Assembly: GCA_025055115.1 (NCBI GenBank)
Contig: JANWYJ010000088.1
Coordinates: 1 to 64,000 of the forward strand
Reading direction: 5' to 3'
Length of the DNA: 64,000 bases
Origin: Gemmata sp.
GTDB taxonomy: Bacteria > Planctomycetota > Planctomycetia > Gemmatales > Gemmataceae
Below, piece by piece: positions 12,356 through 31,080 of this stretch (within the stretch, counting starts at the first letter, position 1; each line of letters starts with the position of its first letter). A model generated the notes under the pieces. It had not been told where the DNA came from. It saw only the letters and a list, made by a program, of their open reading frames with translations, and searched no databases. The translations under genes and the position numbers were made by a program.

Positions 12356-12496
12356 CACCGACGTACTGGTGTTGGCGACACCGACGTACTGGTGTTGGCG
12401 GCATGGACGAACCGGTGTCGGCGGCATGTTGGTCGTCCGTTCCGGAGAAGTGCAGAATACAGGTGTTGGCGGCATGGACGAACCGGTGTCGGCGGC
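12356..12496. repeat. 23-bp degenerate tandem repeat
   Basis: Units at 12356-12378, 12379-12401 and 12402-12424 have the pattern CAcCGACGTACTGGTGTTGGCGg, with the third diverged to CATGGACGAACCGGTGTCGG. After an unrelated 36-bp insert the same last unit returns at 12461-12496. The interrupted array suggests repeat expansion and later insertion. Confidence 0.85.
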
Positions 12497-13332: not shown

Positions 13333-14583
13333 TTATCGCCCCAATGCGGTGAAATCGACGATCACTCGTTCGCCGGCGCGGAATGGCACTTTCTGCGTCA
13401 GGGTTTCCGGATGGCCATTGCGGATGATTTCGGCTTTCAGCAAGTACGCGAATTCCCGACCCACGGGCAACAACGGCGTGGAGAAGGTGCGGACCGGCTC
13501 CTGCGAGGGGCTTCGGCGGTCGTCGACATACAGGGTGGCCCCGGGGGGCAGTTTCACGGTGATGATCGCCCGGTCACTGGCCGCCGATCCGAGTGCCGAG
13601 GAAGCAGTCACCGATGGTTCGGTGGTTGTATTTTTCACGGGAATGGCCGGTGTTTCTGTCTTCTCCGTCGTGTTGGTCTTCTCCGTCGTGTTGGTGGCAG
13701 TGGTTGTGGTGGGCGAAGGCAGGACATGCGGCGCTTGGGCCGCGGTCAGATCGACAAATTCCACAGTCACTGTGGCTCCCGCGCGGACTGTCACTTTCTT
13801 GGTCACGCTGACAGTTTCCCCCGCGCGTTCATATTCGGCCCGGAACCGGTACTGGAATTCTTGCTGCGTCGGCAATTCGGGAGTTACGAACTTCCGCTCG
13901 GCCCCCGTAAGATTCAGCGGGCGGTTATCGGCATAGAGTTTGGCATCGGCGGGAAGCTTCACGATGACTGTGGCCCGCCCCGTCGAAGGATTCGACACCA
14001 ACGCGGACGACGAGCCGCCCGCAGGGCGCAAGCCGACATTGCCCGGCGCTGGGTCGGGAATTGCATACGGGATACTCGGGCTGCCGGGTACCGAGGAGGG
14101 GTCGAGAATCGGTGGCGGGGCCGACATGGGAATGCCCCCCTGGCACGACAACCCACCGTTGAACACCGGGGTGTACGAAATGGGCATTCCGAAGCACGCA
14201 TACGCCGAACCGGAACACGAGAACCCCGCGCAGGAATAACCGCGCCCACCACAGCAACCGTAGCCGGAGCTATCGCGATCGAACCAGCGGCGGACCCGAT
14301 CTGCCAACCCCCAACCGAAGACACTCCCACTACAACCACTGCAACCGCGACAGGATGCCGAATACGACAACCCACCCTGACAGCCCAAGCACGAGGCACT
14401 GGCCGCCGTTAGCCCCGCGCAGCCACCATAGCAACTGTACCGGGCCGCTCCGATGCAACCCCCACAACCGCCACAACCCGTGCCGCTGCTACTGTCGCGG
14501 CTGAATAGATCGCGAAAGTACCCATTGAATTGCGGTACCTCCGGGGTCGCGGTCAATGCGGTCAGCATCACAATGCTATACAT
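13333..14583 (-). CDS. Cys/Gly-rich protein with two TIGR03000-type domains
   Basis: A 416-residue protein. The first 160 residues hold about 16 cysteines in Gly/Ser-rich contexts such as CGGCGGC and SCRGCSGC. Two copies of a beta-rich domain of about 75 residues follow: one starts ATVIVKLPADAKLYADNRPL, the other AIITVKLPPGATLYVDDRR. Each ends with a strand of the form VTVRAGATVTVEF. This is the pattern of the planctomycete-specific TIGR03000 family, whose function is unknown. The domains are joined by a Thr-rich linker. ATG 14583 follows GAAAAGG. No classical signal peptide is seen. A structural or envelope role is guesswork. Confidence 0.75.
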   Translation of the reverse strand: MYSIVMLTALTATPEVPQFNGYFRDLFSRDSSSGTGCGGCGGCIGAARYSCYGGCAGLTAASASCLGCQGGLSYSASCRGCSGCSGSVFGWGLADRVRRWFDRDSSGYGCCGGRGYSCAGFSCSGSAYACFGMPISYTPVFNGGLSCQGGIPMSAPPPILDPSSVPGSPSIPYAIPDPAPGNVGLRPAGGSSSALVSNPSTGRATVIVKLPADAKLYADNRPLNLTGAERKFVTPELPTQQEFQYRFRAEYERAGETVSVTKKVTVRAGATVTVEFVDLTAAQAPHVLPSPTTTTATNTTEKTNTTEKTETPAIPVKNTTTEPSVTASSALGSAASDRAIITVKLPPGATLYVDDRRSPSQEPVRTFSTPLLPVGREFAYLLKAEIIRNGHPETLTQKVPFRAGERVIVDFTALGR

Positions 14584-14844: not shown

Positions 14845-15639
14845 ATGTCGATGGAATGGACATTGGCGTTTCTGTGCGCGTCGGCGTTTGTGGCCGGGGC
14901 GATGAACTCGGTCGCCGGGGGCGGCACATTGTTGACGTTTCCTGCCCTGACCGCAGTAGTCAGTCCGGCGGTGGCGAACGCTACGAGCACGGTAGCCCTG
15001 TTGCCGGGGTCGTTCGCGGGGGCGTTGGGTTATCGCCGCGAATTGTGGGACTGCCGCCGTTTCGTGTTCCGGATGCTGGTACCGAGTCTGGTGGGCGGCG
15101 GATTCGGCGCGTGGTTGGTGGTGAAGAATCAGAGGGCGTTTGCGAGCCTGGTCCCGTGGTTGATTCTGACCGCCGCTGTGCTCTTCGCCATCCAGGCGCC
15201 GCTGGCGAGATGGCTGAAGCGGCGAGCCGCTACAACCAATGCCCAGCCGGGTGAAGCCCGTGGGCCTCTGCAGTGGGCCGTCATGGTTTTTCAGCTACTG
15301 ATTGCGATTTACGGCGGCTACTTCGGCGCGGGCATCGGCATTTTGATGCTGAGTGCCTTGGGATTGATGGGGATGGGCGACATTCACCGGATGAACGCCG
15401 TCAAAACCTTTCTGGCAGCGATCATCAACACAGCCACAGTGGCCGTTTTTCTTTCGGCAGGCGATCGCCTGGTGCGGTGGGATTTGGCGTGGCCAATGGT
15501 CGTTTCGTCGATCGTGGGCGGCTATTGTGGAGCGCGGGTGGCCCGCCGTTTGCCAGCGCATTACGTGCGCTATGCGGTCGTCGTGATTGGTTTCAGCCTG
15601 TCGGCGTATTACTTTCTCAAGGAGTACGCGAAGCTGTGA
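14845..15639 (+). CDS. TSUP/TauE-SafE family membrane transporter
   Basis: A 264-residue polytopic protein with about eight hydrophobic helices. It has the family's duplicated motif: GAMNSVAGGGTLLTFPAL near the start and YGGYFGAGIGILML near the middle, each at the start of a half. TSUP proteins export or import sulfite, sulfoacetate, taurine or related anions; the substrate is not readable. ATG 14845 or 14851 fits, since the first helix begins there. It runs divergently from the TIGR03000 gene, and its last 23 bp overlap tail-to-tail with the copper ATPase gene. Confidence 0.85.
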   Translation: MSMEWTLAFLCASAFVAGAMNSVAGGGTLLTFPALTAVVSPAVANATSTVALLPGSFAGALGYRRELWDCRRFVFRMLVPSLVGGGFGAWLVVKNQRAFASLVPWLILTAAVLFAIQAPLARWLKRRAATTNAQPGEARGPLQWAVMVFQLLIAIYGGYFGAGIGILMLSALGLMGMGDIHRMNAVKTFLAAIINTATVAVFLSAGDRLVRWDLAWPMVVSSIVGGYCGARVARRLPAHYVRYAVVVIGFSLSAYYFLKEYAKL

Positions 15640-18526
15640 GTCGCCAGCGGCTGGGGAAAAACGTCACGGCGGCCAGCCCCACAAGCAGCCGCTCCGTAAA
15701 CCAGGTGCCCACCACCATGCCGGCCAGCATGCCGGCTGTCATACCGAGGAAACTGGCCAGCACGGCCACGGTGAGGTGCGGCGTTGCGAACGGCATAGAC
15801 CATTGCCCACCAGCGAGCATGCCGAACACCATACCGAGATTGCCCCCCGTGAACATCGCCCACTGATGCCGGCGATTCGGGATCGCTCCTTGCCCCAGCC
15901 ACCGCATTGCGATGTTCGCCAGAACCAGCATCCCCACCCACATCCACGGTTTCATCACACCGGCCCGCATCGCTTCGACACACTGGCAACAGCCATGATC
16001 GGCCAGTGGAGTCAAGCCGTTGTCGACCCACCAGCCAAGGAGCATGCCCAAGTTGCCGAAGGTCAACATCCCTCCACACATATCGAGCGTATGCGGCCAG
16101 GTGAACCGCTGCCAAGCATATGTCCAGGCTACGCCCAAACAGCCAAACACCCCGAGAATAGCCACCGCAGCCAGCGGTTGTTGCCACGCAGCCAGTAACA
16201 GAATAAAAACCCCACCCTGGAGAAAGAGCGCTAACCCGTGCAATCGCGCTAGCCAACGAGACTTCGAGAAACGCGACGGCGGCGTTAAAGAAGGGGCGGT
16301 TCCCGATGGCTGAGAAGACGACGGCCACCGAAGAGCGTCGATAACGGCCTGGGGTGACCATGCCGCCGGTGTACCCCCGGCTTCAGGTAACGTTTCCCGG
16401 TGAATGCTTGCCACCGCGGCGGGTGGACGTGCAGTGACGGGTTCTGGCATGCGAGGCGACTCTTCGGCGGTCTCGTCACAGTGCCCCACACGGGTCGACG
16501 AGAAAAGCAAGGTGAGGCTCGAAACCACCATCAAAAGCGCTGCAACCACCGGGTGGAGTAGGCCACAGGCCGCCAGGGTGATACCGACCAGATTGTAACT
16601 CACAGCGCGAATGAGATTCCAACGCACCGCCCGCAGTGCCTCGCGACTGATTTCAATCGCCCACGGGATCACCCGCAGATCATCGTGATACAGTGTGATC
16701 GCCGCGGCCTGCACGGCCAGGTCGGTTCCACACGCCAAGGCGATCCCGCAGTGAGCGCGTGCCAGGGCCGCGGCATCATTGATGCCGTCGCCAATGAACA
16801 GCGGTTTTCCGCCGGCGGCTTGAACAGCTTCGACCACAGCGTGCTTCTCGGTGGGCAATAGGCCACTGCGCGCTGGCGGCAGACCGAGAGCTTCCGCACG
16901 GCCGCTGGCATCACCCGTGAGCACTTCCACAGGGAGACCGAGGCGGGCGAAGTGGGCCAGAGCCTGCGGCGTGGATTTGCGCAACGTCTCTGCGACCGTC
17001 GCCACAGCGACCACGGTATCATCCACCGCCACAAAAACCCGCGCCTCCCCCCCCGGCGGCGTGGCCTCAGCGGTACCGGTGATCCAAGCCGCCGTACCGA
17101 TGCGCAGAGTGTGCCGCTTGCCATCGGCTTCATCCAACTCCGCACTCACCCCACAACCAGGAACAACGACGAACGACCGCACTTGCGGTTCGCGCCCCGG
17201 CATGAAGGGCCGCGGCAGCTCCGCAAAGGGCTTGGCGATCGGGTGCTGGCTGTGCGCTTGCACCAGCGACAACCACCCGAGCAACTGCGCCCGCTCTTCG
17301 CCCGTACAAGTCGTTGCGATGTCGATGAGTGTGAAACGGTCTTCGGTCAGGGTGCCGGTTTTGTCAACAAGAACGCGATCGACGGAGGCGAGCCGTTCCA
17401 ACGCTTCACCGTGACGAATGATCACGCCCCGTTCCGCGAGGCGGCTGAGTGCTGACCACACCACCACCGGAGTCGCCAGACCGATCACACACGGGCACGC
17501 GACCAGCAGAACCGACATAGCGTAAAAGAGCGCTGTTTCCCACCCGACCGCTGCGACAAAGCCCCAATAAACGAAGGTGCCAATAGCGACCCAAACGACC
17601 AAAGGGAGAAACCACCGGCCGAGGGCATCCGCGCGGGCTTGCAGTGATAGGGGCTGGCCGCGGGCCGCTTCCACTATGGCCAAAAGCCGATCGACCTCGC
17701 GTTCGGTACCCGGGGCCGTAGCGCGAATGCGGAAGCGGGCATCGTGGCTGATTGAGCCGGCCAGAACGCGATCACCGGGCCGGCGGACTACGGCAAACGG
17801 TTCACCGCGAACGGCCGATTCCGATATAAAGCCGACACCGTCGCAGACAATCCCATCCACCGCGATCCATTCCCCCGGATGCACTTCGACAACATCTCCC
17901 GGTTGCACTTCAGTCACACGTCGGGTGTGCGTTTGTCCGGATGCGTCCACGATGCGGCAGAAGGAAAGTTGATCGCTCCATGCCCGGGATGCGGCCAGTG
18001 CCGCGGCTCGCGCTCGCGCACCGATCAGCTTGCCAAGCGTGTAGACGACCAGGAGAACGGACACGACCTCGAAGTAAATCTTCCCATAGCCGGTCAGAAG
18101 CGCTTGAAGCGATGCCGTCATCGCTCCGGCCATGGTAACGAGGAAGAGGGCTTCGAGAGTGAGCCGGCCGCGGCGCAATTCGTTCCATGCGGAGTGAAAA
18201 AGCGGCCAGCCGAGCAGGGCGATGACCACGAGGGTCCCCGCCAGTATGGCCGACTGGGTGAAGGTGCGTGCCGCCGCGGGAACGTCGTCGTGCAGGTTGA
18301 GGGCCAGGCCGAAGATCATCGACTGACCGACAACAAGAATGGCCACTCCCAGCCGCCAACCGAGAGAGCGGGCCGCGTCTGGGGCGCAGGTTTCGTCACA
18401 AGCATTTTCATCCAACGCCAAACAGCCAAAGCAGCAGTAGGTGCGCCCGTTGCGGCCCGGGTGTCCGCTGCCGGTGATCGGTCCGCCGCAGTGTCCGCAG
18501 TTTGGCATAGATCGCGTCAGGGTCAT
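15617..18526 (-). CDS. ccoI: CcoI/FixI-type copper P1B-ATPase with an extra C-terminal membrane domain
   Basis: A 969-residue heavy-metal P-type ATPase. The N-terminus has the Cys-rich metal-binding module seen in CcoI/FixI (CGHCGGP..., then CCFGCLALDE). Core motifs are complete: the CPC ion site in VACPCVIGLATP, the phosphorylation site DKTGTLTE, HP in the SQHPIAKP segment and GDGINDAAALA. The core ends near residue 690. About 270 more residues follow, with five or six membrane helices, twin GNLGM motifs and a CCQC cluster. CcoI proteins load copper for cbb3 oxidase assembly, and this gene ends the oxidase operon. The extension is not part of usual CcoI. Confidence 0.9.
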   Translation of the reverse strand: MTLTRSMPNCGHCGGPITGSGHPGRNGRTYCCFGCLALDENACDETCAPDAARSLGWRLGVAILVVGQSMIFGLALNLHDDVPAAARTFTQSAILAGTLVVIALLGWPLFHSAWNELRRGRLTLEALFLVTMAGAMTASLQALLTGYGKIYFEVVSVLLVVYTLGKLIGARARAAALAASRAWSDQLSFCRIVDASGQTHTRRVTEVQPGDVVEVHPGEWIAVDGIVCDGVGFISESAVRGEPFAVVRRPGDRVLAGSISHDARFRIRATAPGTEREVDRLLAIVEAARGQPLSLQARADALGRWFLPLVVWVAIGTFVYWGFVAAVGWETALFYAMSVLLVACPCVIGLATPVVVWSALSRLAERGVIIRHGEALERLASVDRVLVDKTGTLTEDRFTLIDIATTCTGEERAQLLGWLSLVQAHSQHPIAKPFAELPRPFMPGREPQVRSFVVVPGCGVSAELDEADGKRHTLRIGTAAWITGTAEATPPGGEARVFVAVDDTVVAVATVAETLRKSTPQALAHFARLGLPVEVLTGDASGRAEALGLPPARSGLLPTEKHAVVEAVQAAGGKPLFIGDGINDAAALARAHCGIALACGTDLAVQAAAITLYHDDLRVIPWAIEISREALRAVRWNLIRAVSYNLVGITLAACGLLHPVVAALLMVVSSLTLLFSSTRVGHCDETAEESPRMPEPVTARPPAAVASIHRETLPEAGGTPAAWSPQAVIDALRWPSSSQPSGTAPSLTPPSRFSKSRWLARLHGLALFLQGGVFILLLAAWQQPLAAVAILGVFGCLGVAWTYAWQRFTWPHTLDMCGGMLTFGNLGMLLGWWVDNGLTPLADHGCCQCVEAMRAGVMKPWMWVGMLVLANIAMRWLGQGAIPNRRHQWAMFTGGNLGMVFGMLAGGQWSMPFATPHLTVAVLASFLGMTAGMLAGMVVGTWFTERLLVGLAAVTFFPSRWRLTASRTP

Positions 18527-18593: not shown

Positions 18594-19457
18594 CTAGTTC
18601 TTCGGAGGCGGTGGGCCACCGTCGAGGTCGGAATAGGTTACCGGAATCTTCAGCAGTTCCGCTTCCGTGACGGGTTGGGTGCCGTTGGTGGGGCGACGGC
18701 CTTCTTTAGCGCGGGCCGCTTTGACGTGGGCGGCGGTGATCGCCGGTTTGGCGTTATCGGGGTCGGCTTTATTGCTCCAACTATTGCGGATGTACGTGAG
18801 CACACCAGCGATTTCGTAATCTTTCAAGACGTTGCCCTGTTGGGGCATCACCGCGCCGTTGTAGCGGCGGCCGCTGACGGTGATCGGACCATTCAAGCCA
18901 TACAAAAGAATCCGCGCCAAGCGTGCGGCCGACGCTTGATCGCCGGCCACCCATTCGGAACCATCGAGGGGGGGGATGTTCTGGGCGGGTTGCCCTTGAC
19001 CGTTGGCTCCGTGGCACGCCGCACAGATCGTTTGGTATTTCTGTTCGCCAATACGCTTGAGTTCTTCGACTGTCAGCGGGTTGGGGTCGGGCATCGGTTT
19101 GGCTGGCGGGGCCACGTCTTTCAGATCAGCCCGATCGTAGACATCGCTGCGGAAGTCGGCGGTGTAGGTGCCGATATAGTAGCCGCCCCAGGCCAACAAA
19201 GCCCCACACACAACGGCAACCCAGAACGGCACCGGCTCGAAGCCATCGCGCGGTTCGGCTTGCTCGCGTATCACCATCGCGTGCAGGCCTTGCACTGAGT
19301 CGGAAGCTGTACCCCCGGGTTCTTCAACGGCTTCATCGCTCACACCGGTGGCCGACAGCATCACTGGGTTGTTCATCTGCGCCATGGGGGCGCGGTGCAT
19401 GGCAGCGACGGCATCAGCGCTGCCCACGGGCGGGCGGAGTTCGTTCGGTTCGTTCAT
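18594..19457 (-). CDS. membrane-anchored monohaem cytochrome c in the CcoP position
   Basis: A 287-residue protein: about 80 polar residues, one membrane segment near 84-104 (PVPFWVAVVCGALLAWGGYY), then a class I cytochrome c domain with one haem site, CAACH, near residue 149 and a probable axial Met in GAVMPQQGN. The start at 19457 overlaps the ccoO stop by four bases (ATGA), a coupled arrangement. In cbb3 oxidases this slot is filled by CcoP, which has two haems; here only one CxxCH is seen. It probably passes electrons to CcoO. Confidence 0.82.
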   Translation of the reverse strand: MNEPNELRPPVGSADAVAAMHRAPMAQMNNPVMLSATGVSDEAVEEPGGTASDSVQGLHAMVIREQAEPRDGFEPVPFWVAVVCGALLAWGGYYIGTYTADFRSDVYDRADLKDVAPPAKPMPDPNPLTVEELKRIGEQKYQTICAACHGANGQGQPAQNIPPLDGSEWVAGDQASAARLARILLYGLNGPITVSGRRYNGAVMPQQGNVLKDYEIAGVLTYIRNSWSNKADPDNAKPAITAAHVKAARAKEGRRPTNGTQPVTEAELLKIPVTYSDLDGGPPPPKN

Positions 19458-20275
19458 TCTTTGGCCTCCGGTAGCGGCACCTCCGCTTTGCGCAGTGCCA
19501 ACAGGTATGCGACCAGGGCTTCCCCATCGGCCGTGGGCACGATTTGGTAATCTTCTTCCGGTGTGGTGAGCCAGAAGTCGAGTAAGCGTTTTTGGCCGTC
19601 GGCGGTGGTGAGGTCGAAGGTTTCGGTGGGCGCAGAGGCGAGGACTTGCCTGAGGATCGTAGCGCCGCGTTCGCGGAGCAGTTCGTCCCATTGTTGTGGG
19701 GTGGGTCGCCAGCGGTAACCTGGGTGGACTGTCCATTCCCGCCCCAGCAGAAGGGCTTTTTCGCTCCGGTCGCCGACAATCTTTTCGCGCTTGTACAAGT
19801 ACGGAAACGACGGCATGATGCTCCAGGGGTTGGCGCTGCGTGGATTGAGCAGATGGGTATGATGCCACATCGCCGAGGGGTTGCGGACACCGATGTTGGC
19901 CAGGTCCGGACCAGTGCGCATGGTGCCGAGCATGGTCGGGTTGTCGTAGAGGTAATCGCGCGACACGGTGCGGCGTAAGCCCCAGCTGCGTTTGATGTCG
20001 GCCCCGGTTCGTTCTTCGCCGTTGTCGTCCCACCAGTTGCCGAAGCGCTGGCTGCGCACTTGCTGCGAGTGGCAATACATGCAACCATTCGCCTGGTACA
20101 CGCGCTTACCGGCCACGGCGATGCCTTGCAGCGGCTGTGGGTACGGATCGTCGCTGTCCGATTTCTGGTAAGGCTGTTCGTGACCCAGTTGTTGGAAGGG
20201 AAAGACGATCAGCCCCAGCCAACTTGATGAAAACGTGAATAACGCCCCCAGAAAAATCACCATCCCACGATCCAT
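19454..20275 (-). CDS. ccoO: cbb3-type cytochrome oxidase subunit II
   Basis: A 273-residue protein with one N-terminal membrane helix (GMVIFLGALFTFSSSWLGL) and a single haem c site in GCMYCHSQQVR, the signature of CcoO. The GPDLANIGVR segment and the Met in SIMPSFPYL match the family's haem surroundings. The ATG at 20275 is preferred to a longer frame, as it begins just before the anchor helix. It overlaps the following cytochrome gene by four bases and lies 34 bp after ccoN. Confidence 0.92.
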   Translation of the reverse strand: MDRGMVIFLGALFTFSSSWLGLIVFPFQQLGHEQPYQKSDSDDPYPQPLQGIAVAGKRVYQANGCMYCHSQQVRSQRFGNWWDDNGEERTGADIKRSWGLRRTVSRDYLYDNPTMLGTMRTGPDLANIGVRNPSAMWHHTHLLNPRSANPWSIMPSFPYLYKREKIVGDRSEKALLLGREWTVHPGYRWRPTPQQWDELLRERGATILRQVLASAPTETFDLTTADGQKRLLDFWLTTPEEDYQIVPTADGEALVAYLLALRKAEVPLPEAKE

Positions 20276-20309
20276 AGCCACAGCTCCCGGAGTGACAACA
20301 ACCCACCGC

Positions 20310-21815
20310 TTACAAGTCCCGCGGGCCGATCCGTTGCGGACCTGACAGACTGGCGCTGGGAGGTTCGACGAAGAATGTCGGACCGCCGGCGCGTTGCTGC
20401 CCCCAACCCGCCACATTCATGACAAACAGCACCGTGAATGCCAGATGGCCGGCGGTCATCAGCGTGCCCGCGATCGAGCGCGAAAACAGATACGGCAGTG
20501 TGTAGTTGACGATATGGGCAAACGGCACATTCGGGTTATTCAGCATCCGGCCCTGCCACCAACCACCGATCGATAAGCCAGCAAAATAGATGGCAATCCC
20601 CACCGCCGCGCACCAGAAGTGAACGCGGATCAGCGTGGAGCTGGCCCACTCACGACCCGTCAGCCGCGGCACCATGTAGTAGAACAGGCCGAACATAATC
20701 ATGGTGACGAAGCCATAAACACCCAGATGGGCGTGGGCCACGGTGTAATGCGTAAAGTGCGTCACTTCACTGAAATCCTTCAGAGCTTCAAAAGACCCCT
20801 GCACGCTGACAAGCGTATAGGCGATGGCCCCAAAGACGGTGAACCGCAACGCCGGGCTATAACGCAGGCGGTGGAAGTGCCCGCGCATTGTCATGTGATG
20901 ATTGATGGCCACGGCCAGCACGGGTATCAGCATCATCATACTTCCCACCGTGCTGGCGCTGGAAAGCCAACCAGGAATGGGGCCGCCAATCAGATGGTGC
21001 ATTCCCGCCCACGAGTAAAACAATGCCAATGACCAAAAACCGATGATGCTCAGATAGTAACTGTGAATGGGCCGGCCGATGATCTTGGGAATCAGGTAGT
21101 ACGCCGTGCCAACCGCCACCGGAGTGAACCACAAGCCAATCACGTTGTGGCCGAACCACCAATTCACAATCGGCTGAACCACGCCGACCGCGGTACTCCA
21201 GAAGATCATGAACTGCGCCACCAGATACAACCACGGGAACCAGAAGATGGCCCCGAGAATGTACCATTGCGTCACATACACATGCGGTTCGCGGCGGCGG
21301 CGGAACACGGCCACGGTCCACGCGGAGATAATCCCTACAGCCGCGATGAAAAACGGCGGCGCGTACGCGGGCGCTTCCAACCATTCCACCGAAGTTGCGT
21401 CACCCAGGATGATGCCAACGACGGCGAGGAATTGTCCGATATTCCACAGCACGCCGGCTAGGATCAGCAACTTCGGGTACACCAACTCGGCTCGCGACAG
21501 CCGGCACATCTGCCATAACAGGGCAGCCACCGTGGCCAGCGACAACCAGCCGTAACCCATCGCTTGCAGGTGGGCCATGCGCACCCGGCCGAAGGTCAGT
21601 TCCGGGCTGGCGGTCAGCAAGTAGGGCGTATGCAGTTTCACCGAGGCCAAAAGTGCCAGCAGCGAGCCAACGAGTAACCACACGATGGCACTGGCAGCAA
21701 AGAACAGCACCGGACCGCGACAGGAGGCGTCGATGGCGGCGCGTTCCGCGGCGGCTTGCGCCCGGTCGCGGGCAGAATCGTCAACCGTAGTCGTCATTGC
21801 AGCGGTTGTGGCCAT
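20310..21815 (-). CDS. ccoN: cbb3-type cytochrome oxidase catalytic subunit I
   Basis: A 501-residue haem-copper oxidase subunit with 12 or more helices. CuB and cross-link residues are in WWFGHNVIGLWF and, for the cbb3-specific Tyr on helix VII, in LALFYSWAGMHHLIG. The haem ligands are in THYTVAHAHLGVYG. Its placement with ccoO and ccoS supports the C-family assignment. Reduces O2 to water and conserves energy as a proton gradient. The ribosome binding site (AAAAGGA) lies inside a 17-bp tandem duplication at 21817-21850, so the gene has two copies of it. Confidence 0.93.
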   Translation of the reverse strand: MATTAAMTTTVDDSARDRAQAAAERAAIDASCRGPVLFFAASAIVWLLVGSLLALLASVKLHTPYLLTASPELTFGRVRMAHLQAMGYGWLSLATVAALLWQMCRLSRAELVYPKLLILAGVLWNIGQFLAVVGIILGDATSVEWLEAPAYAPPFFIAAVGIISAWTVAVFRRRREPHVYVTQWYILGAIFWFPWLYLVAQFMIFWSTAVGVVQPIVNWWFGHNVIGLWFTPVAVGTAYYLIPKIIGRPIHSYYLSIIGFWSLALFYSWAGMHHLIGGPIPGWLSSASTVGSMMMLIPVLAVAINHHMTMRGHFHRLRYSPALRFTVFGAIAYTLVSVQGSFEALKDFSEVTHFTHYTVAHAHLGVYGFVTMIMFGLFYYMVPRLTGREWASSTLIRVHFWCAAVGIAIYFAGLSIGGWWQGRMLNNPNVPFAHIVNYTLPYLFSRSIAGTLMTAGHLAFTVLFVMNVAGWGQQRAGGPTFFVEPPSASLSGPQRIGPRDL

Positions 21816-21876: not shown

Positions 21877-22083
21877 TTACTTGCGTTCGTGGTTCATATC
21901 GGGGAAGCCGTCGGTCGCTTCACCGATGGGTTCATCCGGGCCGAAGATCGACTTCGCTCCGCGATCGAAATTGTCGAACTGCCCAGAGCGGAACGCCCAG
22001 CCCAGCGCCAGCACAGCCGCGCCACCAAAGAGCACCATCGAACCTATCACGGTCGCAAAAAGCGCTATCTCGACAGCAGTCAT
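21877..22083 (-). CDS. ccoS: CcoS-like cbb3 oxidase assembly protein
   Basis: A 68-residue protein with one N-terminal membrane helix (ALFATVIGSMVLFGGAAVLAL), then WAFRSGQFDNFDRGAKSIF. The G-Q-F-D-(D/N) segment after the helix is the mark of CcoS, which is needed to load haem and copper in CcoN. The C-terminal part is longer than usual and contains GPDEPIGEATD. It overlaps the upstream small membrane protein gene by four bases. Confidence 0.85.
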   Translation of the reverse strand: MTAVEIALFATVIGSMVLFGGAAVLALGWAFRSGQFDNFDRGAKSIFGPDEPIGEATDGFPDMNHERK

Positions 22084-22445
22084 GGTTTCTTTCCTGGGCT
22101 TGGGGTCTTGGGGGGTTCGTCGTTGGGATCGGGCGTGGGAAACGGCAGTTTGTCGTTGGGTGTTTTGAGGGTGCTGAGGAGTTCTGCATGGGCTTTATCC
22201 AAGGGCATTTTCGCCCCGACGCCGCGGAGGGCCGCGTCGTTGCGGGCTTGAACTTCCTCAAGATTGGGCACGAACTTCTTGCCGCTGTCGGCCTCAGACG
22301 ATGGGGCCGGCGCGCGTGTGACCGTAAACCACATCAGCCCGAGGAAAACGAACAGCGCGGCGAAGGCGGCGGCTACTGTCATCACCGGGAAGCCAGAAGC
22401 ATCCGGCGCTGGATCGTCGTTGCTAGTCTCGGTAACGTCGCTCAT
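22080..22445 (-). CDS. small single-helix membrane protein in the respiratory operon
   Basis: A 121-residue protein: a short acidic N-terminus, one membrane helix near 20-43 (VMTVAAAFAALFVFLGLMWF), then a polar tail ending in a Pro/Lys-rich stretch (DEPPKTPSPGKKP). It starts with ATGA overlapping the actF stop and ends overlapping ccoS, so it is translated in step with both. I do not recognise a family. Its position between complex III and oxidase genes suggests an accessory or assembly subunit, which is inference. Confidence 0.7.
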   Translation of the reverse strand: MSDVTETSNDDPAPDASGFPVMTVAAAFAALFVFLGLMWFTVTRAPAPSSEADSGKKFVPNLEEVQARNDAALRGVGAKMPLDKAHAELLSTLKTPNDKLPFPTPDPNDEPPKTPSPGKKP

Positions 22446-23713
22446 GGTGTTTCATTCTCGTAGCCGATGGTTTCGTTCAAACGGGCGTCGCGAATCGGAA
22501 TCAGTGGGTAGCGTACAAAGCCCCAGAAGGTACTCCCCAGCAGCACACCCAGGAAGAACACCGGGGCCGCGAAGTCGAGCCAATGCACACGGACCGTATC
22601 CTTGTGCAGCACAGGCAAAATCTGCCAATACAATTCGTAGGCATGCATCGCGAGAATCCAGGCTGCGGCGAAGGCGAGCCACTTCGGGTGGCGTTTGTGA
22701 GCACGCGGCAACAACACGAAGAACGGCACAATGAAGGAAAGAATCGGCAACAATAGGCTCAGGGTGTACCAGGCACCGTTTCGCCGCAGAAGATAGAACT
22801 GTGTCTCTTCTGGCACATTGCCATACCAGATGAGGAAGTATTGCGCGAAGGCAATATACGCCCAGAAGACGGTGAAACCGAACATGAGTTTGGCAACATC
22901 ATGCAGGTGTTCCATCGTGATGGTTTGCCGCAGGTAGCCCGCAGCGCGCAGGCCAAGTACTAGCAGAACACCCATCGACAGCGAGCCGCGTAGCCCTCCC
23001 ACCCAGAAGTAGACACCGTAGATGGTGCTGAACCATGAGTATTGCAGGCTCATCAGGATGTCGACAGCAAAGAACGTGCTGGTCACACCGAGTAGCACAA
23101 CACCCGAGGGTGCCCACCATTGCATCGTGCGGGTCAGGGCAGCGCCGCCGACGGCATCTTGCGTCAGCGACCAGCGCCGCATCGCCGTGGCGTACGCGAT
23201 CCACACACCGAAGTAGACAGCCAGCCGCGCCAGGAAAAACGGCGTGTGGAAGTAGAGATGTTTAACGTGCCACAGATGGTGCAAATGTTCCTCGTCGGGT
23301 TCCGGGCCATGCACGAACGCGTACCACGCGTGCAGGTTACCGCTGAAGGTGCCGATCAGCACCGGGAGGAACAACAGCGCCAGAGGTCCGATGGCCCGCG
23401 TGATGTTCTCATAGACACGTCGCAGCCCGACCGACCAGCCGGCATCCGCCACATGGTGAATCAGCACCCAAAAGAGCGCGCCGAGGGCCATATCGAGGGC
23501 GAACACATAGCCGAACAAGTAGGAATGGTAGAACTGCGGCGGATTCACCAACAGGCCGAGCACCAATAGCGCTCCGGTGGCGAGTGTTACGGCAAAGAGA
23601 AGCCGCGCCCCGCTCGCCAGCGCATCGATTGTCAACGGGGCAACGTTATCTGGCAACCCTTCGGGGTAGCTCAGTGGCGGGCCGTTACTATTGGTCGCAC
23701 TCACGGTACTCAT
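22442..23713 (-). CDS. actF: alternative complex III subunit ActF, quinone-binding membrane subunit
   Basis: A 423-residue polytopic protein with about ten helices, the length and pattern of ActF, the smaller NrfD/PsrC-like subunit of alternative complex III. Characteristic stretches are FYHSYLFGYVFALDMALGAL, HAWYAFVHG and the His-rich loop HLHHLWHVKHLYFHTPFF. It and ActC anchor the complex in the membrane. It is the last act gene and is joined by a four-base overlap to the small membrane protein gene. Confidence 0.9.
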   Translation of the reverse strand: MSTVSATNSNGPPLSYPEGLPDNVAPLTIDALASGARLLFAVTLATGALLVLGLLVNPPQFYHSYLFGYVFALDMALGALFWVLIHHVADAGWSVGLRRVYENITRAIGPLALLFLPVLIGTFSGNLHAWYAFVHGPEPDEEHLHHLWHVKHLYFHTPFFLARLAVYFGVWIAYATAMRRWSLTQDAVGGAALTRTMQWWAPSGVVLLGVTSTFFAVDILMSLQYSWFSTIYGVYFWVGGLRGSLSMGVLLVLGLRAAGYLRQTITMEHLHDVAKLMFGFTVFWAYIAFAQYFLIWYGNVPEETQFYLLRRNGAWYTLSLLLPILSFIVPFFVLLPRAHKRHPKWLAFAAAWILAMHAYELYWQILPVLHKDTVRVHWLDFAAPVFFLGVLLGSTFWGFVRYPLIPIRDARLNETIGYENETP

Positions 23714-23780
23714 GGATTCCTCAACCCTCCGGCTTCAGCCCCAGCGCATGGTTGGGTTCGCTTTCTCCAGCCGGGTTTGT

Positions 23781-24659
23781 TCACTTGTTGTCCACCCGTT
23801 CGTTGCCATAGGCGTATTGCAATACCCGCAGATAGGCGACGATCGCCCAGCGATCGAGGACATCTTTGATCTGATGGCCGTAACCGGGCATTTGTCGCAC
23901 GCCATGCGTGATGACATGGAACAATTGGCCGTCGGGTTGGGCCTGAATCGCCGCAGTGAGCGTGTTGGCCGGGGGCACACTCAGCCCGTAGGCGCCGACA
24001 ATGCCATAAGCGGCATCACCGGCGCCGCCGCGGCCACTGGTTCCGTGACAAACCGCACAATGGCGGTTGAACTGTATCTGGCCGCGGCGGAAAAGCGCAT
24101 CCCAACCACCGGCCCGTTCAACTGCAGTGGGCGGAATGTGGTTCACATAGTAGCCCTCGCCGACGAGCTGGCCGTTCTCCCATTTCGGTTTGATCGGTAC
24201 TTCGACGCCATCTTTCATCTCTTTGGCATCGGGGTTGGCAATGCCGAAATAGTAGCGGCGGTCGGCCTGGAGAAAGTCGGCGTGGGGGACGGTATGGTAG
24301 CCGGCGTCGGCGCTGTGGGCGGTTCCGTCGAAGGGAATGGTACCTTCGGGTGGCAGGCGGCTACTGCGACCATCGGCGAAGTATTGGCTGGGGCCTTGCG
24401 CGGTGTACTTCCCTTGGTATTTCATGTCGAGGAAGAAGTGCCACGGGCGGTCGCGACTGAGCGAGCCACGCGCCCCCAGCACGACCGTAATGGCGGCGAA
24501 CGTCCCGAAAATCGCCGTGAGCATGTACAGGTATGACATCACTCGGCCCCGGGCACCGCGCCACGCCCCCACCAGCGTGACGATCAACAACAACCCTGCG
24601 ATGCCGAGAATGCCCAGCATCACCGCGTTCATCAGGATGTTGGTGTCGATGTAATACAT
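23781..24659 (-). CDS. actE: alternative complex III subunit ActE, monohaem cytochrome c
   Basis: A 292-residue protein with two N-terminal helices (near 13-33 and 41-62) and a C-terminal cytochrome c domain with one CAVCH site near residue 201. A Met ligand is likely in GVRQMPGYG. The two leading helices differ from the lipoprotein form of ActE in Rhodothermus. The haem faces the periplasm and passes electrons from ActA towards the oxidase. It lies 67 bp before actF and 41 bp after the actCD gene. Confidence 0.87.
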   Translation of the reverse strand: MYYIDTNILMNAVMLGILGIAGLLLIVTLVGAWRGARGRVMSYLYMLTAIFGTFAAITVVLGARGSLSRDRPWHFFLDMKYQGKYTAQGPSQYFADGRSSRLPPEGTIPFDGTAHSADAGYHTVPHADFLQADRRYYFGIANPDAKEMKDGVEVPIKPKWENGQLVGEGYYVNHIPPTAVERAGGWDALFRRGQIQFNRHCAVCHGTSGRGGAGDAAYGIVGAYGLSVPPANTLTAAIQAQPDGQLFHVITHGVRQMPGYGHQIKDVLDRWAIVAYLRVLQYAYGNERVDNK

Positions 24660-24665
24660 GGCGTT

Positions 24666-24721
24666 GGCTCCGCTAAGCTTCGATCACCGCGACGGCTCCG
24701 CTAGGCTTCGACCACCGCGAC
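24666..24721. repeat. 28-bp tandem duplication of the actCD stop region
   Basis: Copies at 24666-24693 and 24694-24721 differ at two or three bases. On the coding strand each contains GTCGCGGTG(G/A)TCGAAGC(C/T)TAG, so the last codons and the stop of actCD are duplicated. The second copy is now the actCD-actE spacer. Confidence 0.9.
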
Positions 24722-26794
24722 ATGGCGGCCGCCGAGCGATTCGAGGAAGGCGCGCGTGGCATCGGGGTTGAATTTCTCGTCTTTCGCTTCAATCGTCAGG
24801 AAGAAGCCGCTTTGGGTGCTACGGTGAAAGGTCGGGTGGCTATCGACGGGGTGAAACAAGCGCGGCAGCCCACAGAGGCCAATGAGGGCCAAGAGCGTGA
24901 AGAACCCCGCGAACAGCACCGTCATTTCGAAGAAGATCGGCACGAACGCTTCCCACGACCGGTATTCCTTGCCACCAACGATGATCGGATAGTAGTACGC
25001 CGAGAAGTAGAACTGCATCGCTACGGCGGCAGTCAGTCCGGTCAGCGCGCCGGCGAGGGTAAATAGTGGCAAGCGGCTGCGTGTGCGGCCGATGGCTTCT
25101 TTCATGCCGTGAACGTAGAACGGCGTCCAGGCGTCGATGTGCTGGTAGCCTGCGGCAAGGGCTTTCTTAGCGGCTTCTAATAGCTGCGTCCCGTTGGCGA
25201 ACTCGGCGATGGCACCCCACGGCGTGCCACGACCCCCGGGAGTGGGTATGAACGGTGGTACCGGCTGGCTGTGCGGCTTCACTTCGGTGGTTGGCTCCGC
25301 AGGCGGGCCATACGCGGCGGCCAGAGCGTGATCGGCCGTGGGGTATTGGCCGTCGCTGCCCTTGAGGTACTGCCCAGTGGGTACGAAGTGGTAATGCGGG
25401 TTGGCCATCGGCAGAACCCCTTTCACTTCGGCGACCGCGACCATCGGCAAGAAGCGAATGAACAAGAGCGTGAGCGTGAAGAACAGTCCAAAGTCGCCGA
25501 TCATCTGCAACCAATCGACCCACGTGGGGTAGAATTGCCCCCACGAACCCGGCAAAAAGTCATGATGCAACGATTGCACGATGATGACAAAGCGCTCATA
25601 CCACATACCGACATTCACACAGGTGACGACAATCAGTACAAACCACGGTGTCTGCCGGCACCAGCGAATCCAGAACACCTGCGGGATGATGAGATTGCAC
25701 GTCATCATCACCCAATAGGCCCAGGTGTAATCGCCATCGAAGGCTCGATTCTGGAAGGTTTGCCATTCATAGGGATTGCCAGAAAACCACGCGATAAACA
25801 ACTCCATGAGGTACGCGTAACCGACGAGCGAACCGGTGGCGAGGATGAACTTGCACATCACGTCGATGTGTTTGATCGTCACCACGTTTTCGAGTTTGTA
25901 GGCTGCTCGCGCCGGGATCATGCATTGCAAAACCATTGCGAAACCGCCGAAGATCGCCCCGGCGACGAAGTAGGGCGGGAAGATCGTGGTATGCCATCCG
26001 GGGATAATCGACGTTGCGAAGTCGAAGCTCACCACCGAGTGAACCGACAGCACCAGTGGTGTACTGAGGCCAGCGAGCATCAGATACGCGACTTCGTAAT
26101 GCCGCCAGTTGCGCGTACTGCCGCGCCAGCCGAGCGACAGGAAACCGAAGATCACCTGGCGCATGCGGCTTTTGGCCCGGTCGCGCAAGGTCGCCAGGTC
26201 GGGAATCAGCCCGATATACCAGAAGATCAGCGATATCGTGAAGTAGGTACTGACCGCAAACAAGTCCCACAGTAGCGCTGAGCGGAAGTTCGGGAAGATA
26301 TGGTTGGCGTTGGGCAATGGGAACATAAACCACGCGTACCAAAACCGCCCGACGTGAATGCCAGGGTATATCCCCGCGCAGATGACCGCGAAGATCGTCA
26401 TCGCTTCAGAGAAGCGGTTGATACTTGTGCGCCATTTCTGCCGGAACAAGAACAGAATGGCGCTGATGAGTGTGCCGGCGTGGCCAATCCCGATCCAGAA
26501 CACGAAGTTGGTGATGTCGAAAGCCCAGTTCACCGGGTTGTTCGATCCCCACACGCCCACACCCGTGGAGATGAGATAGGTCGCGGCCAAGACCCCGCCG
26601 CACAACAGCGACGACGTGATGAGAAACGCCGGCCACCACCAATACGGTTGCGCCCTCTCGGTGATCGAGCTGATCTGTTCGGAGAGTGAGTCGTAGTTCG
26701 CTGGCCCCCACACCAGTGGAATGCGCGGTAACGGGTCGGGGAAGGCTGGCCCGTGCGGCGGTTCGTGCGTTGAGGGAGTGGTCGTGGTAGTCAT
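24701..26794 (-). CDS. actCD: alternative complex III ActC-ActD fusion
   Basis: A 697-residue protein joining two subunits that are usually separate. Residues 1 to about 470 are ActC, an NrfD/PsrC-type membrane subunit with ten helices ([54 protein letters not shown]). A linker of about 60 residues rich in Pro/Gly follows. Residues from about 530 on are ActD (DUF3341): [36 protein letters not shown], two helices, and the ending [20 protein letters not shown]. ActC lies next to the quinol site; ActD has an unclear structural role. Confidence 0.9.
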
Positions 26795-26870
26795 GGCCTG
26801 ATTCAGGGTTGTGGTCGGTCGGTGTCCGGTGTTAGCGATCGTGTCGTGGCGACCAAGCGAGCCGTAGCGG

Positions 26871-29800
26871 TTAGAGCATCTGGGGATTCAGGTTCCGCAG
26901 CCGCGGCCGGTAGCTGGTCCGTGGTTTGGTATTCAGTTCGCCGAGCAGTAAATAGTCGCTGTCGCGCTGTTTGAGCTGGCTGACACGGCTGGTGGGATCG
27001 AGAGCGTTGCCGAAGGTAATCGCCCGCGTCGGGCAGGCCGCTTCGCACGCAGTCACGATCAGGCCATCGGGGACGATGACGCGGCCTTGCGCGTCGAGAT
27101 CGTAGCCCGCCGCACGTGGGTTCTTCGGCTTGCGATAAGCACCCGCGGAACCATTGGCCGGTTGGAAGCTGTCGTCCACTTCGATCACTCGTCGGCCTTG
27201 AGCGACCTCGGCCGCTGCGATCTTGGCGCTGTATTTGCCACGCTCGATCCGCTGCACACAATACGTGCATTTCTCCATGACCCCACGCATGCGCAACGAC
27301 ACGTCAGGGTTTTTCAGCATCTTGAGCGTTTCTGGAACACCGGTGCCGCGGAAGTTAGCTCCATCTTTCGCCAAGGGAGTTGGCACGCGCAGTTCGTCCA
27401 GACCACGTTTGTTGAAATCGAACCAATTGAAGCGGCGAACTTTGTACGGACAAGCGTTGGCGCAGTAGCGTGTGCCGATGCAGCGGTTGTACACTTGCAA
27501 GTTCAGCCCTTCGTCGCTGTGAACCGCCGCGTTCACCGGGCAGACTTGCTCGCAGGGGGCCGCTTCACAATGTACGCACGCTACCGGTTGCGTGACGATC
27601 CGTGGTTCATCACGCGGTCCCGTGAAGTAGCGGTCGAGGCGAATCCAATGCATTTCGCGATTCCGCTTCACCTCATGTTTGCCCACCACCGGGATGTTAT
27701 TCTCCACTTGGCAGGCCATCATGCAGGCCGAACAACCGATGCACACGTTCAGATCGATCACCATCCCCCATTGGAACTGGCTGTTGAGCGCTTCGGGGCG
27801 GGCCAGATCGAGAGGGAAGCGGGTTTGCTTCTGCCGCGCTGGCGCTGGTTGCGGCTGCGGGTTGCCATACGCTCCTTGAAAACCCTTCTTGAGCATCTCC
27901 TCGGTAATGTGCCCGTCGGGAGGAATGCCGATCAGTGGCTGTGCATGGTGCGCTGATCCGCCATCCGCATGGGGCGATGTTTCCTGCAACGGATGCACGG
28001 CAGGCGTTTGCTGCGGAACGGCTTCGCGAACAATATCGCGGCCGTGCGGAATGACCCCGTGTTCCTGTGTCGTGACCAGATCGAACGTTCGCCCTGTTGG
28101 TTTCAGTTGCGCTCCGGTGGCGATGTGCAAAGCCTTCGACAATCGCAGTGGGAAAACGTTGACCCCACCCCCCTGCGGCACATTCTCAATCCGCATCTGG
28201 CCATACTGACCAAACGTCAAGGCGATGGAATAATCCGCCTGCCCTGGCAACACGAAAGCCGGAACCGCGACTGCGTTTTGCTGCAACCGAACTTCGATGA
28301 GGTCACCCGTGCGGATGCCGAACTCAGCCGCCGTCGCCGGGCTGATGCAGGCGGCGTTATCCCACACCACCTTGGTGATTGGGTCAGGCAATTCTTGCAG
28401 CCACGGGTTCATCGCCCCGCGACCATCGCCCACCGTGTACGATGGATGGAAGGTGACTTCCAAGGAATCTTTCGTCGGTCCTGGCACTGGCTTGGCCGCG
28501 GCAACGGCGGTGGCCACATCGGCAGCCTTCAGTTCGCCTGAGGGCTTCGGCTTCTCCTTCGCACCATCCGGGGCGTGATCGACAGGAAGGAAACCGAGTT
28601 GCTTGTAGCGGTTGAAGGCCTCTTCGAAATCAGTCGCGGTGATGGCTTTACCGCTGCGCTGGGCGAACGACAGCCGCACGAAGTGGTACGCGGCTTTCTG
28701 CGCGGCTGTGTACGACACCACCGGTTTGCGGTCGGCCCCGGGTACTTGGGCCAGTTGCACCAGCACTTCCAAAGCGGTACGGCCGCCGCGAGCTGGCGGG
28801 GCCAAATCGTCACCGCCACTGCGACCACTGTTCAAAGGAGCAATGAGCGGCTGAACACAACACAGCGAGCCATCACCCGCTTCCGTGTCACCCCAACTTT
28901 CCAGATAGTGGGCCAGCGGCAGATGCCAGCTACATCGTTCAGAAGTCTGATCGTAATACAGCCCCAAGCGGATTGTCGTGCGGACCTTCGTGAGTTCTTC
29001 GGCGAAGCGCAAGTCGGCCGGAGCATTCAGCACCGGATTGCCACCGATGATGATCAAGGTGTTCACCTGACCCTGCCGGATCGCTTCGACCAATTGCGGC
29101 AAGGAAGGGTCGAGCATTTCTGGCGGCGCGGGGCGGAATTCGGCCATCCCCGCCGCATAGTTGCCCAGCGCGACATTGACGGCGTGCGCCAGTGCGTGAA
29201 CCCAGGCTGGTTGCCGCGGCCCTACCACCACCAGGCTCTTGCCAGCATTCGCCGCTAGGTCGTGAGCCACAGCTTGCACCCACTTGCGCTCGAATGCGCT
29301 GGCGTTGGGCAACGCGGGAAGCGCCGTTGCGCTGGGAAGAGCCGCGGCGTGCTTCGTCTTCAGTTCCTCGGCCAGCGCGATCAGATAAAAACCAATCTGC
29401 GACGCAGCCAGGCGGTAGCGATGATCGGCCATAGTACCCGTGATCGTGTACGTCGATTCGACAACGTACAGCCGGTTCATAGACCGTTCGTCGTGGCGTT
29501 TGGTCGCGAAATTGCGGGCGTAAAACACATGGTCGCTTTCGTGGCCGAGAAAGTCGCTATCGAGTGCCAGAATCCGTTCTGCACGCTCGAAGTGGTAGCG
29601 GGGAAGAAGTTTTTCCCCGAAGGCTATGTCGGTGCCGTGCAGAATTTCGCTCAGGTCGCACGCTTCGTAGCTGTACCAGGCGGTTTCTGGCCATTTTGCG
29701 GCCATTTCCTGACGCAACAGCCGCAACGCGGGGAAGGGAGTTTGTTCCGTGAGAATCGCCAGCCCCCGGCCCTTGTCTTTCGTCAGTTGTTCAGTGAGAG

Positions 29801-30398
29801 TTCGGGCGAAACGATCGTAATCGTCCCATTTCCGCGCGCTGCGGCCTTGCATCACGCCAGGGTATTTCTCCGACATGACCCGATCCGGGCTGTACAGATC
29901 AAAGATACTGGCCTGGGCGAAGGCGTCGGTGCTGCCGCGGCTGCAGGGGTGTTGCGGATGGCCTTCGATCTTGGTGGGTCGGCCGTCGTGGCTTTCAACC
30001 AGCACCGGCAGGGCACCGCCGGGGCGTGGAATGCTGGTGGCGTAAAATGTTGGTTGGCCGTGAACAATGTGGCCGGTTTGTTCGTCGGGCACTGCGGCAT
30101 AGGGGAGAATGGGAATCTCAGGCCGCCGGCAACCGGCCAAAGCCGCCATGGCCAACGTGGTACTGGAGAGTGCCAGAAACTTCCGCCGCGACACGATGGC
30201 CCAACCGGGGTTGTCGTCGCGCAGTTCGGCTTCGCCCCGCGCGTCGTACACGTTGACGAAGCCGGGGAACTCCTCGGCGGCTTGCGCCTGGAATTCTGGC
30301 GTTGCGGCCAGATGGTCGAGGCTCCGGTAATAAGTTGGTGCGGTCATGGTCGGGTTGAATTCCCAGGCTGTGATGGGCGTTGGTTCGTGGTTCGGCAT
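26871..30398 (-). CDS. actB: alternative complex III subunit ActB, molybdoprotein-like and iron-sulfur fusion
   Basis: A 1175-residue subunit. A twin-arginine-type segment lies near residues 70-90 ([20 protein letters not shown]). A molybdopterin-oxidoreductase-like domain (to about 830) follows, which in ActB holds no molybdenum. From about 870 the iron-sulfur part has four Cys groups: [39 protein letters not shown] (Thr in place of a Cys, as expected for the 3Fe-4S cluster) and CTYCVQRI paired with CEAACP. Electrons pass from quinol through these clusters to ActA. ATG 30398 or the one 17 codons later may be the start. Follows actA by 16 bp. Confidence 0.93.
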
Positions 30399-30414
30399 TC
30401 CACGGTCTGGCCGG

Positions 30415-31080
30415 TTAGCGGTGGCAACCTTGGCAGTTCATCGGCGCTTTGATCTGCAAATCCGTGGCGATGCTGGCCCCGATTTCGCGGGCGGTTTTAC
30501 CGTCCGGTGGAGCCCACTTCAGATTCGTTACCTCATGAACCGGTCGCAGGTGTTCGTGCGGATCGGTGTGACACTTCAAGCACCAGCCCATCGTCAGCGG
30601 TTGATGGTGATAAACGACCTTCATCTCGTTGATCGGGCCGTGGCAGGAAATGCACGATACCCCTTTGTTCACATGGACCGCATGATTGAAGTAGGCGTAC
30701 TCGGGAAGCTTGTGAATCCGCTTCCACTCCACCGGTTGGCCAGTATCGTAGCTGGTGCGAATGGGCGCTAGTAGCGGACTGTTGCCTTTCACATTCGCCA
30801 TTTTGGGATTGTGGCAATTCATGCAGACGCGCGCCGTCGGCACAGTCGCATGCGGCGATTCATAGACCGATTGATGGCAGTAGGCGCAATCCATGCCGAG
30901 CTTGCCGGCGTGCAGTTCGTGCGAAAACGGTACCGGTTGCTCCGGGGCATAGCCCACACGCGTATAGCTCGGCAACGCGTAGTAGTACCAGCCCACCACC
31001 AACAACCCCACCGCGACCACCACACCCACTGCCGCTTGGCGAACCACAGCATCGGCTGATCGCGCAAAGATCGCGGGCAA
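30415..31080 (-). CDS. actA: alternative complex III subunit ActA, pentahaem cytochrome c
   Basis: A 221-residue protein with one N-terminal membrane helix (AVGVVVAVGLLVVGWYYYA) and five CxxCH sites: CAYCH, CMNCH, CISCH, CLKCH and CQGCH. Five haems and this size are typical of ActA. The start is TTG at 31080, seven bases after GAGGGG. It is the first gene of the operon that runs through to the copper ATPase. A likely -10 element and a CRP/FNR-like operator lie just upstream. Confidence 0.92.
   Translation of the reverse strand: MPAIFARSADAVVRQAAVGVVVAVGLLVVGWYYYALPSYTRVGYAPEQPVPFSHELHAGKLGMDCAYCHQSVYESPHATVPTARVCMNCHNPKMANVKGNSPLLAPIRTSYDTGQPVEWKRIHKLPEYAYFNHAVHVNKGVSCISCHGPINEMKVVYHHQPLTMGWCLKCHTDPHEHLRPVHEVTNLKWAPPDGKTAREIGASIATDLQIKAPMNCQGCHR

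Follow-up and report, generated by a model that had tools for sequence, protein, structure and literature searches.

A CcoI-like copper ATPase in a Gemmata genome carries a fused, methionine-rich membrane domain that co-occurs with a divergent cbb3-type oxidase

The route by which copper reaches the membrane-buried CuB site of cbb3-type oxidases after export by the pump CcoI is not fully settled. Full cbb3 activity in Caulobacter requires FixI together with a PCuAC chaperone (PMC12617631), and the copper exported by Rhodobacter CcoI is proposed to go to a periplasmic chaperone bound to the membrane (PMC8475189). A 64,000-nucleotide stretch of a Gemmata sp. genome (assembly GCA_025055115.1, contig JANWYJ010000088.1, positions 1 to 64,000; hereafter the window) encodes a P1B copper ATPase whose chain runs on into a further membrane region. 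An initial reading of the letters made without database searches (the sequence-only reading) had pointed out this extension. We report that this additional membrane domain is real, that it conserves residues which could bind Cu(I), and that it is tied to one oxidase.

The window takes its place at G000:C66 in a 4.93-Mb genome, the nearest kin of which in this study is G017 (G denotes a genome of the study, L a fetched locus and A1–A4 alignments). The 969-residue open reading frame encoding the ATPase has no internal stop. The heavy-metal P-type ATPase model TIGR01525 covers residues 129–679 and the last core helix of the structure model spans residues 659–678, which bears out the initial observation that the protein continues past the normal end of a P1B core, here by ~290 residues. 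The core comprises an N-terminal Cys cluster, for which Pfam gave no match, eight predicted transmembrane (TM) helices and the motifs CPC, DKTGT, GDGxND, YN and MxxSS. The catalytic motifs (DKTGT, GDGxND and the GE of the A-domain) are present and constant in the 14 full-length rows of A3, and so are Cys344-Pro345-Cys346, Tyr644-Asn645 and Met666, Ser669 and Ser670; we take YN and MxxSS to be copper transport motifs. These motifs mark the core as an ordinary, active pump for Cu(I).

Could the extension be an unrelated frame, joined to the pump by a sequencing error that removed a stop codon, as the sequence-only reading itself had cautioned? Broken frames in a few relatives would be in keeping with such an artefact. 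We searched with the extension alone in 59 related genomes (the window's own included, E up to 1e-3) and obtained matches in 26, counting the window's own. Among 25 loci fetched with their flanks from the other relatives, core and extension share one frame in 22 (18 of them complete, 2 truncated at a contig end and 2 broken inside the core); the remaining three comprise two frame breaks near the linker and one locus cut by a contig end. The ratio of nonsynonymous to synonymous substitution rates (dN/dS) in four pairs is 0.12–0.26 for the extension and 0.11–0.18 for the core, as compared with 0.48 and 0.59 for the linker in the two pairs where it was computable, and the extension thus evolves under purifying selection. 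Two peptide patterns derived from A1, run against 84,980 species genomes in a scan that can miss distant relatives, returned 100 stretches. Of these, 23 encode a relative; all 23 loci are in named genomes with planctomycete titles, and 13 belong to Gemmata, Gemmataceae, Fimbriiglobus or Zavarzinella. Four distant planctomycetes also carry the extension. In an even draw of 392 genomes from the phylum it is fused to the ATPase in 3 (G000, G165 and G223), a fourth hit, in G154, being the weak lone protein described below; part of the first-look candidates was scored in most genomes of these wide searches, so that misses are possible. G505 and G544 are two more carriers in another class, making, with G165, 3 of 298 searched. 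Recurrence in a shared frame, including in distant classes, together with the dN/dS values and the 23 loci of the scan, leads us to reject the lost stop codon, to which we assign next to no probability.

The idea that the extension might occur as a separate gene near other oxidases was not supported, as the 22 shared frames indicate. A gene fission was considered for G010 (L030) and G015 (L033), where the extension stands in its own frame adjoining the core, and was rejected: both cores are broken too, the L030 frame has no start codon ahead of the domain and that of L033 has one about five residues before it. L063 is also split, with ambiguous bases in the linker, and we infer that all three are frame breaks and not separate genes. 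G154 holds a lone 210-residue membrane protein (L112:9259-9888, minus strand; L112/L146) with weak similarity to the extension (E 6e-7), which is without most of the invariant Met residues and has no adjoining ATPase match; the CcoN of this genome is intermediate (40% identity). The initial statement that CcoI and CopA proteins stop where the core stops is true of the 8 CcoI without extension and the 8 other P1B ATPases compared here, and may need qualifying for some other P1B hits: P1B-like ATPases in open frames of ~1,100 residues, well beyond a bare core, occur at G025:C4, G031:C37, G034:C249, G037:C48, G040:C32 and G041:C330. Peptides such as TPSPKKGGG and PLPEGKGEK recur in the linkers of L029–L034 and inside the core of L061; as a guess, they may stem from dispersed repeats that were inserted into disordered regions and are translated.

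An AlphaFold2 model of the extension, computed from 24 aligned sequences, reached a mean predicted local distance difference test score (pLDDT) of 85.5 and a predicted template-modeling score (pTM) of 0.81. It contains six long helices and a short one in the Cys loop, consistent with the five or six additional helices suggested initially. The model of the full protein shows a P1B core with eight membrane helices, the disordered linker and the same six helices (residues 755–778, 784–807, 812–835, 860–876, 885–909 and 918–953), with the short loop helix at 847–858. The compositional bias and the motifs pointed out in the first reading are likewise present: Met makes up 6.9% of the domain and 1.2% of the core, Trp 6.5% and 2.1%, respectively; the twin GNLGM motifs lie at residues 824–828 and 895–899, and the CCQC cluster lies at residues 846–849.

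Conservation within the domain is concentrated on Met. In A2 (24 rows), 12 Met residues are invariant (816, 820, 828, 862, 866, 874, 891, 899, 903, 929, 933 and 937), most of them in MxxxM or GNxGM motifs distributed over four helices, with the MxxxM pairs at A2 positions 63/67 (helix 3), 109/113 (helix 4), 146/150 (helix 5) and 176/180/184 (helix 6). Other invariant residues include His812, Asp815, Asp835 and Cys849, numerous glycines and some Trp. Met is invariant in 12 of 15 columns, versus 1 of 88 for Leu, Ile, Val, Phe and Ala (Fisher p 4e-12, a nominal value because the 24 rows are related). Ten of the 15 Met, Asp815 and Asp835 remain invariant in A4, whose 22 rows include more distant members, and so does Cys849, the last Cys of CCQC. 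When aligned with hhalign, helices 3–4 and 5–6 form a tandem repeat (probability 93.8, E 1.7e-7), a score that may be flattered by shallow, Met/Gly-rich profiles; helices 1–2 are unrelated to either half in the same comparison. The four-helix Met set looks like a duplicated hairpin. Mean charges are positive for loops 2–3 and 4–5 and for the C-terminus and neutral or negative for loops 1–2, 3–4 and 5–6. By the positive-inside rule, and because the core ends on the cytoplasmic side, the Cys loop that joins helices 3 and 4 is predicted to be periplasmic; the six-helix fold and its topology are both predictions.

No known family accounts for this domain in the libraries scanned. Beyond residue 680, no Pfam or NCBIfam model reaches its cut-off, and 24 extension members compared with Pfam (E up to 1) yielded no Ctr, MFS or PF02630 (SCO1/SenC) match. 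PDB sequences gave nothing at E up to 10 and plasmid sequences gave no match. Foldseek returned nothing below E 1 for the extension model (best E 1.2, a weak match that does not show a new fold), and the best VIA structure comparison was also weak (Z 4.5, root mean square deviation 5.5, 122 aligned). VIA also listed CbiM/NikM and TRIC chains at Z 2.4–3.6, values no better than those of unrelated rows. Comparison with the core's own helices, TauE, CcoN, ActF and ActC gave no homology (hhalign E 0.11 or worse). No title or abstract in the searched literature, outside which most subscription journals lie, dealt with a polytopic Met-rich membrane domain fused to CcoI. The extension therefore seems to be an undescribed domain, a conserved family without a name in these libraries.

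The extension tracks one oxidase type. We denote as CcoN-A any CcoN of the window's type (50% identity or more, E below 1e-150), which is found in 26 of the 59 relatives, as is the extension. Both occur in 25 genomes, the extension alone in one (G003), CcoN-A alone in one (G046) and neither in 32; G003 is a 1430-contig draft in which ccoO lies beside the ATPase near a contig start (L037). Counted by genus, the figures are 9, 0, 1 and 27 (p 8e-8, with genera that are not independent), so that CcoN-A is present in 9/9 genera with the extension versus 1/28 others. Fifteen relatives whose sole CcoN is at 28–33% identity are all without the extension. All 3 fused carriers of the 392-genome draw, where CcoN-A was found in 4 genomes, have it, and so do G505 and G544; in the four distant carriers it is at 52–55% identity. 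Mere synteny does not explain this co-occurrence, because the two genes are 281 kb (G008), 87 kb (G010) and 264 kb (G012) apart or on different contigs (G028, G165, G505 and G544). Six His residues of CcoN, which we take to be heme and CuB ligands (His82, His223, His273, His274, His361 and His363), are kept in 27/27 A-type rows and 7/7 canonical rows; these sets include the window and G223 twice each and the intermediate G154 as one row, and leave out the broken L041. Judged by these positions, the CuB ligands of CcoN-A are intact.

A tree of 41 P1B cores (25 extended, 8 extension-less CcoI and 8 other P1B ATPases, with broken and duplicate loci left out; quick search, no bootstrap) gathers every one of the 25 extended proteins into a single clade that also contains the G046 protein (support of 100 in the Shimodaira–Hasegawa-like approximate likelihood ratio test, SH-aLRT). 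This clade adjoins the 7 other extension-less planctomycete CcoI, apart from the 8 other P1B ATPases (SH-aLRT 99); L047 and L049 are long branches. Seven of the 8 extension-less CcoI examined form a separate clade and adjoin another CcoN (28–30% identity). At the base of the extended clade, either a single fusion was followed by loss in G046 or G046 split off before the fusion. The G046 gene (L113, 9043-11235), an extended-clade CcoI without extension that lies beside alternative complex III and CcoN-A, offers a useful comparison.

The window protein shares with CcoI/FixI, the CopA2-type P1B-1 copper ATPases, its core, its transport motifs and a gene order beside ccoNOP and a FixS-like gene, and in the tree it groups with those planctomycete CcoI that have ccoN as a neighboring gene, separately from the other P1B ATPases compared. 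CcoI/FixI ends after TM8, whereas the window protein adds the ~290 residues that include the six-TM Met-rich domain. Rhodobacter CcoI has an N-terminal HMA domain (N-MBS2) and none was detected in the window ATPase, a difference that lowers strict membership in CcoI/FixI. Loss of the HMA domain was rejected as a trait of the extended variant: none was found (PF00403, E up to 0.1) in 10 planctomycete CcoI, 3 with and 7 without the extension. On our best reading, the protein is a CcoI-clade P1B-1-type Cu(I) ATPase with a new six-TM domain fused behind the pump.

What might this domain do? A copper role is most likely: the Met and Cys residues are conserved, the fusion is stable, and the oxidase to which the domain is tied has its CuB site intact. 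We propose that the core would pump Cu(I) out while the flexible linker keeps the extension in the same membrane. The extension would present its periplasmic Cys loop (CCxC) and the Met-rich four-helix set derived from hairpin duplication, take up the exported Cu(I) and pass it, at the membrane or inside it, to CuB in the divergent CcoN, which would work with alternative complex III. We give this reading of the extension as a fused Cu(I) acceptor, relaying copper from the pump exit to CcoN, a probability of about 0.45. An acceptor on the exit side is favored because the Cys loop is predicted to be periplasmic and because an engineered Rhodobacter capsulatus CcoI-SenC protein works: with an acceptor at the CcoI C-terminus, it rescued both ccoI and senC mutants and required the copper site of each part, as reported in PMC8475189. 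Both the co-occurrence and the retention of the CuB ligands agree with the initial suggestion that the extension might pass copper to the oxidase; Cu(I) binding, the direction of transfer and contact with CcoN are inferred. It is doubtful that the extension represents a new class of integral-membrane Cu(I) carrier, in which a duplicated Met-hairpin would form a multi-Met conduit joined to a P1B pump, pumped copper would reach the buried CuB without periplasmic release and the system would be dedicated to the cbb3 branch partnering alternative complex III.

Several observations weigh against the acceptor reading. The copper-specific model TIGR01511 scores 371, just below its cut-off of 397. The full-protein model has a pTM of 0.52, so the placement of extension relative to core is not fixed; the repeat score calls for the caution given above; and Met residues do not cluster significantly on one face of any helix in single-helix wheels (p 0.11–0.30). 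The extension appears dispensable for such oxidases, because G046 combines CcoN-A with a same-clade CcoI lacking it and G274 has CcoN-A without a detected extension in the phylum draw, with its possible misses. SCO1/SenC homologues match in 56 of the 59 genomes (55 over cut-off), carriers included. On these counts the extension is also unsupported as a general stand-in for missing SCO1, although three carriers (G019, G023 and G026) have no SCO1/SenC over cut-off.

In CTR1, an MxxxM motif in a membrane helix serves copper import. CcoA uses MxxxM and HxxxM motifs and periplasm-facing Cys to import copper serving the cbb3 oxidase (PMC8406296). These precedents make a passive CTR1- or CcoA-like importer the main rival: with its MxxxM pairs on helices 3, 4, 5 and 6, the extension would draw periplasmic copper in as a private supply for the fused pump, which would then export it for CuB. 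We consider it unlikely, since import followed by export through one protein needs a cytoplasmic hand-over, the conserved Cys is in a predicted periplasmic loop and none of the 24 members matches a Ctr or MFS model. The extension could instead bind no metal and serve docking or assembly, keeping the pump next to CcoN or alternative complex III, with Met and Gly used for helix packing. Its many invariant glycines, some Trp and the strict link to one oxidase agree with that; against it, Met and one Cys are invariant where Leu, Ile, Val, Phe and Ala are not, a selectivity unusual for packing alone. We rate this function slightly below the importer. Least probable among these functions, and very unlikely in our judgment, is another cofactor or redox role, in which the Cys loop, His59 and the invariant Asp residues would, for example, handle heme or take part in thiol redox chemistry. 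Invariance of Asp62, Asp82 and Cys96 in both 24 and 22 rows, and of His59 in 24 rows (A2 numbering), would suit such a role, which is opposed by fusion to a copper pump and by the lack of any CxxC or CxxCH motif in the window's extension.

Compared with known systems, the fused acceptor that we propose resembles the CcoI-SenC protein in having a copper acceptor at the CcoI C-terminus that serves a cbb3 oxidase. It differs in that SenC is a membrane-bound periplasmic chaperone of the SCO family (PMC8475189), whereas the extension is polytopic, has no PF02630 match and belongs to a natural protein. With CTR1/COPT and CcoA the extension shares MxxxM motifs in membrane helices, and with CcoA (PMC8406296) also periplasm-facing Cys, a position that is predicted for the extension; it differs from both in having no profile or PDB sequence match, in placing Met pairs on four helices of one chain and in being fused to a pump; CcoA and related MFS importers have 12 TM helices, against six long helices here. 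P1B ATPases with soluble metal-binding tails, such as HMA domains, are known, and plant HMA4 reportedly has a di-Cys tail. Like these, the window protein combines a P1B core with an accessory, here putative, metal site; the difference is that here the accessory part spans the membrane several times. P1B pumps with accessory metal-binding parts are already known, and a polytopic Met-rich membrane domain on CcoI seems to be the new element.

In the direction of transcription, and on the same strand, the ATPase is preceded by alternative complex III genes, a gene for a 121-residue protein, a FixS/CcoS-like gene, divergent ccoN, ccoO and ccoP (Table 1). The labels ActF, E, C, B and A for the alternative complex III genes are presumed, and the ActF-like gene had no family match in the scan. 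The CcoP-like protein (scanned as 18597-19421) matches TIGR00782 weakly, as well as Pfam Cytochrom_C and Cytochrome_CBB3. The FixS/CcoS-like gene, between the 121-residue protein gene and ccoN, was revealed by family search alone; 24 of the 26 CcoN-A genomes have a FixS-like match a short distance upstream of CcoN-A. Of 34 stretches that bear the extension, 21 have a TauE gene no more than about 1 kb from it. Elsewhere in the window, a Cys/Gly-rich protein (13333-14583, minus strand) has no Pfam match and has similar frames in L028, L115 and L117; short tandem repeat arrays occupy 12342-12426, 12613-12801 and 167-281 (periods 23, 19–30 and 25); and a protein with a terminase RNaseH-like domain (PF17289; 32995-34461, minus strand), possibly a phage remnant, lies near the respiratory cluster.

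Table 1. Features of the ATPase gene and its surroundings in the window
Feature	Coordinates	Strand	Basis
CcoI-type P1B copper ATPase with C-terminal membrane extension, 969 residues	15617..18526	-	single open reading frame; TIGR01525 above cut-off; recurs in relatives
P1B core, residues 1-680	16489..18526	-	Pfam E1-E2_ATPase and Hydrolase; invariant motifs; structure model
CPC transport-site motif, residues 344-346	17489..17497	-	invariant in A3
Linker, residues 683-755	16262..16480	-	disordered, pLDDT under 50; fast evolving
Six-TM Met-rich extension domain, residues 755-953	15668..16264	-	AlphaFold2 model; alignments A2, A4
Helix 3, DMxxxMxxxGNLGM, first half of internal repeat	16022..16093	-	A2; AlphaFold2 model; repeat comparison
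CCQC, residues 846-849, predicted periplasmic loop	15980..15991	-	A2, A4; loop charges fit outside
Helix 4, MxxGM...AM	15899..15949	-	A2; AlphaFold2 model
Helix 5, MxxxGNLGMxxGM, second half of internal repeat	15800..15874	-	A2; AlphaFold2 model; repeat comparison
Helix 6, GMTxGMxxGM	15668..15775	-	A2; AlphaFold2 model
CcoP-like cytochrome c	18594..19457	-	start read from sequence; ends 67 bases before ATPase start
CcoO-like cytochrome c subunit (start uncertain)	19454..20416	-	TIGR00781, PRK14487 below cut-off
Divergent CcoN, cbb3-type subunit I	20310..21815	-	TIGR00780, 235 bits versus cut-off 583
FixS/CcoS-like small membrane protein (start uncertain)	21877..22065	-	PF03597 over cut-off at 21946-22047; translation
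Alternative complex III genes	22442..31080	-	three match Qrc/Dsr-type subunits; gene order
TauE/SafE-family gene (PF01925)	14848-15639	+	convergent with ATPase, 23-base overlap at its end

A naturally fused acceptor with few candidate ligands would make the hand-over of copper from pump to oxidase testable within one protein. In planctomycetes, the extension is in addition a candidate marker of the oxidase coupled to alternative complex III.

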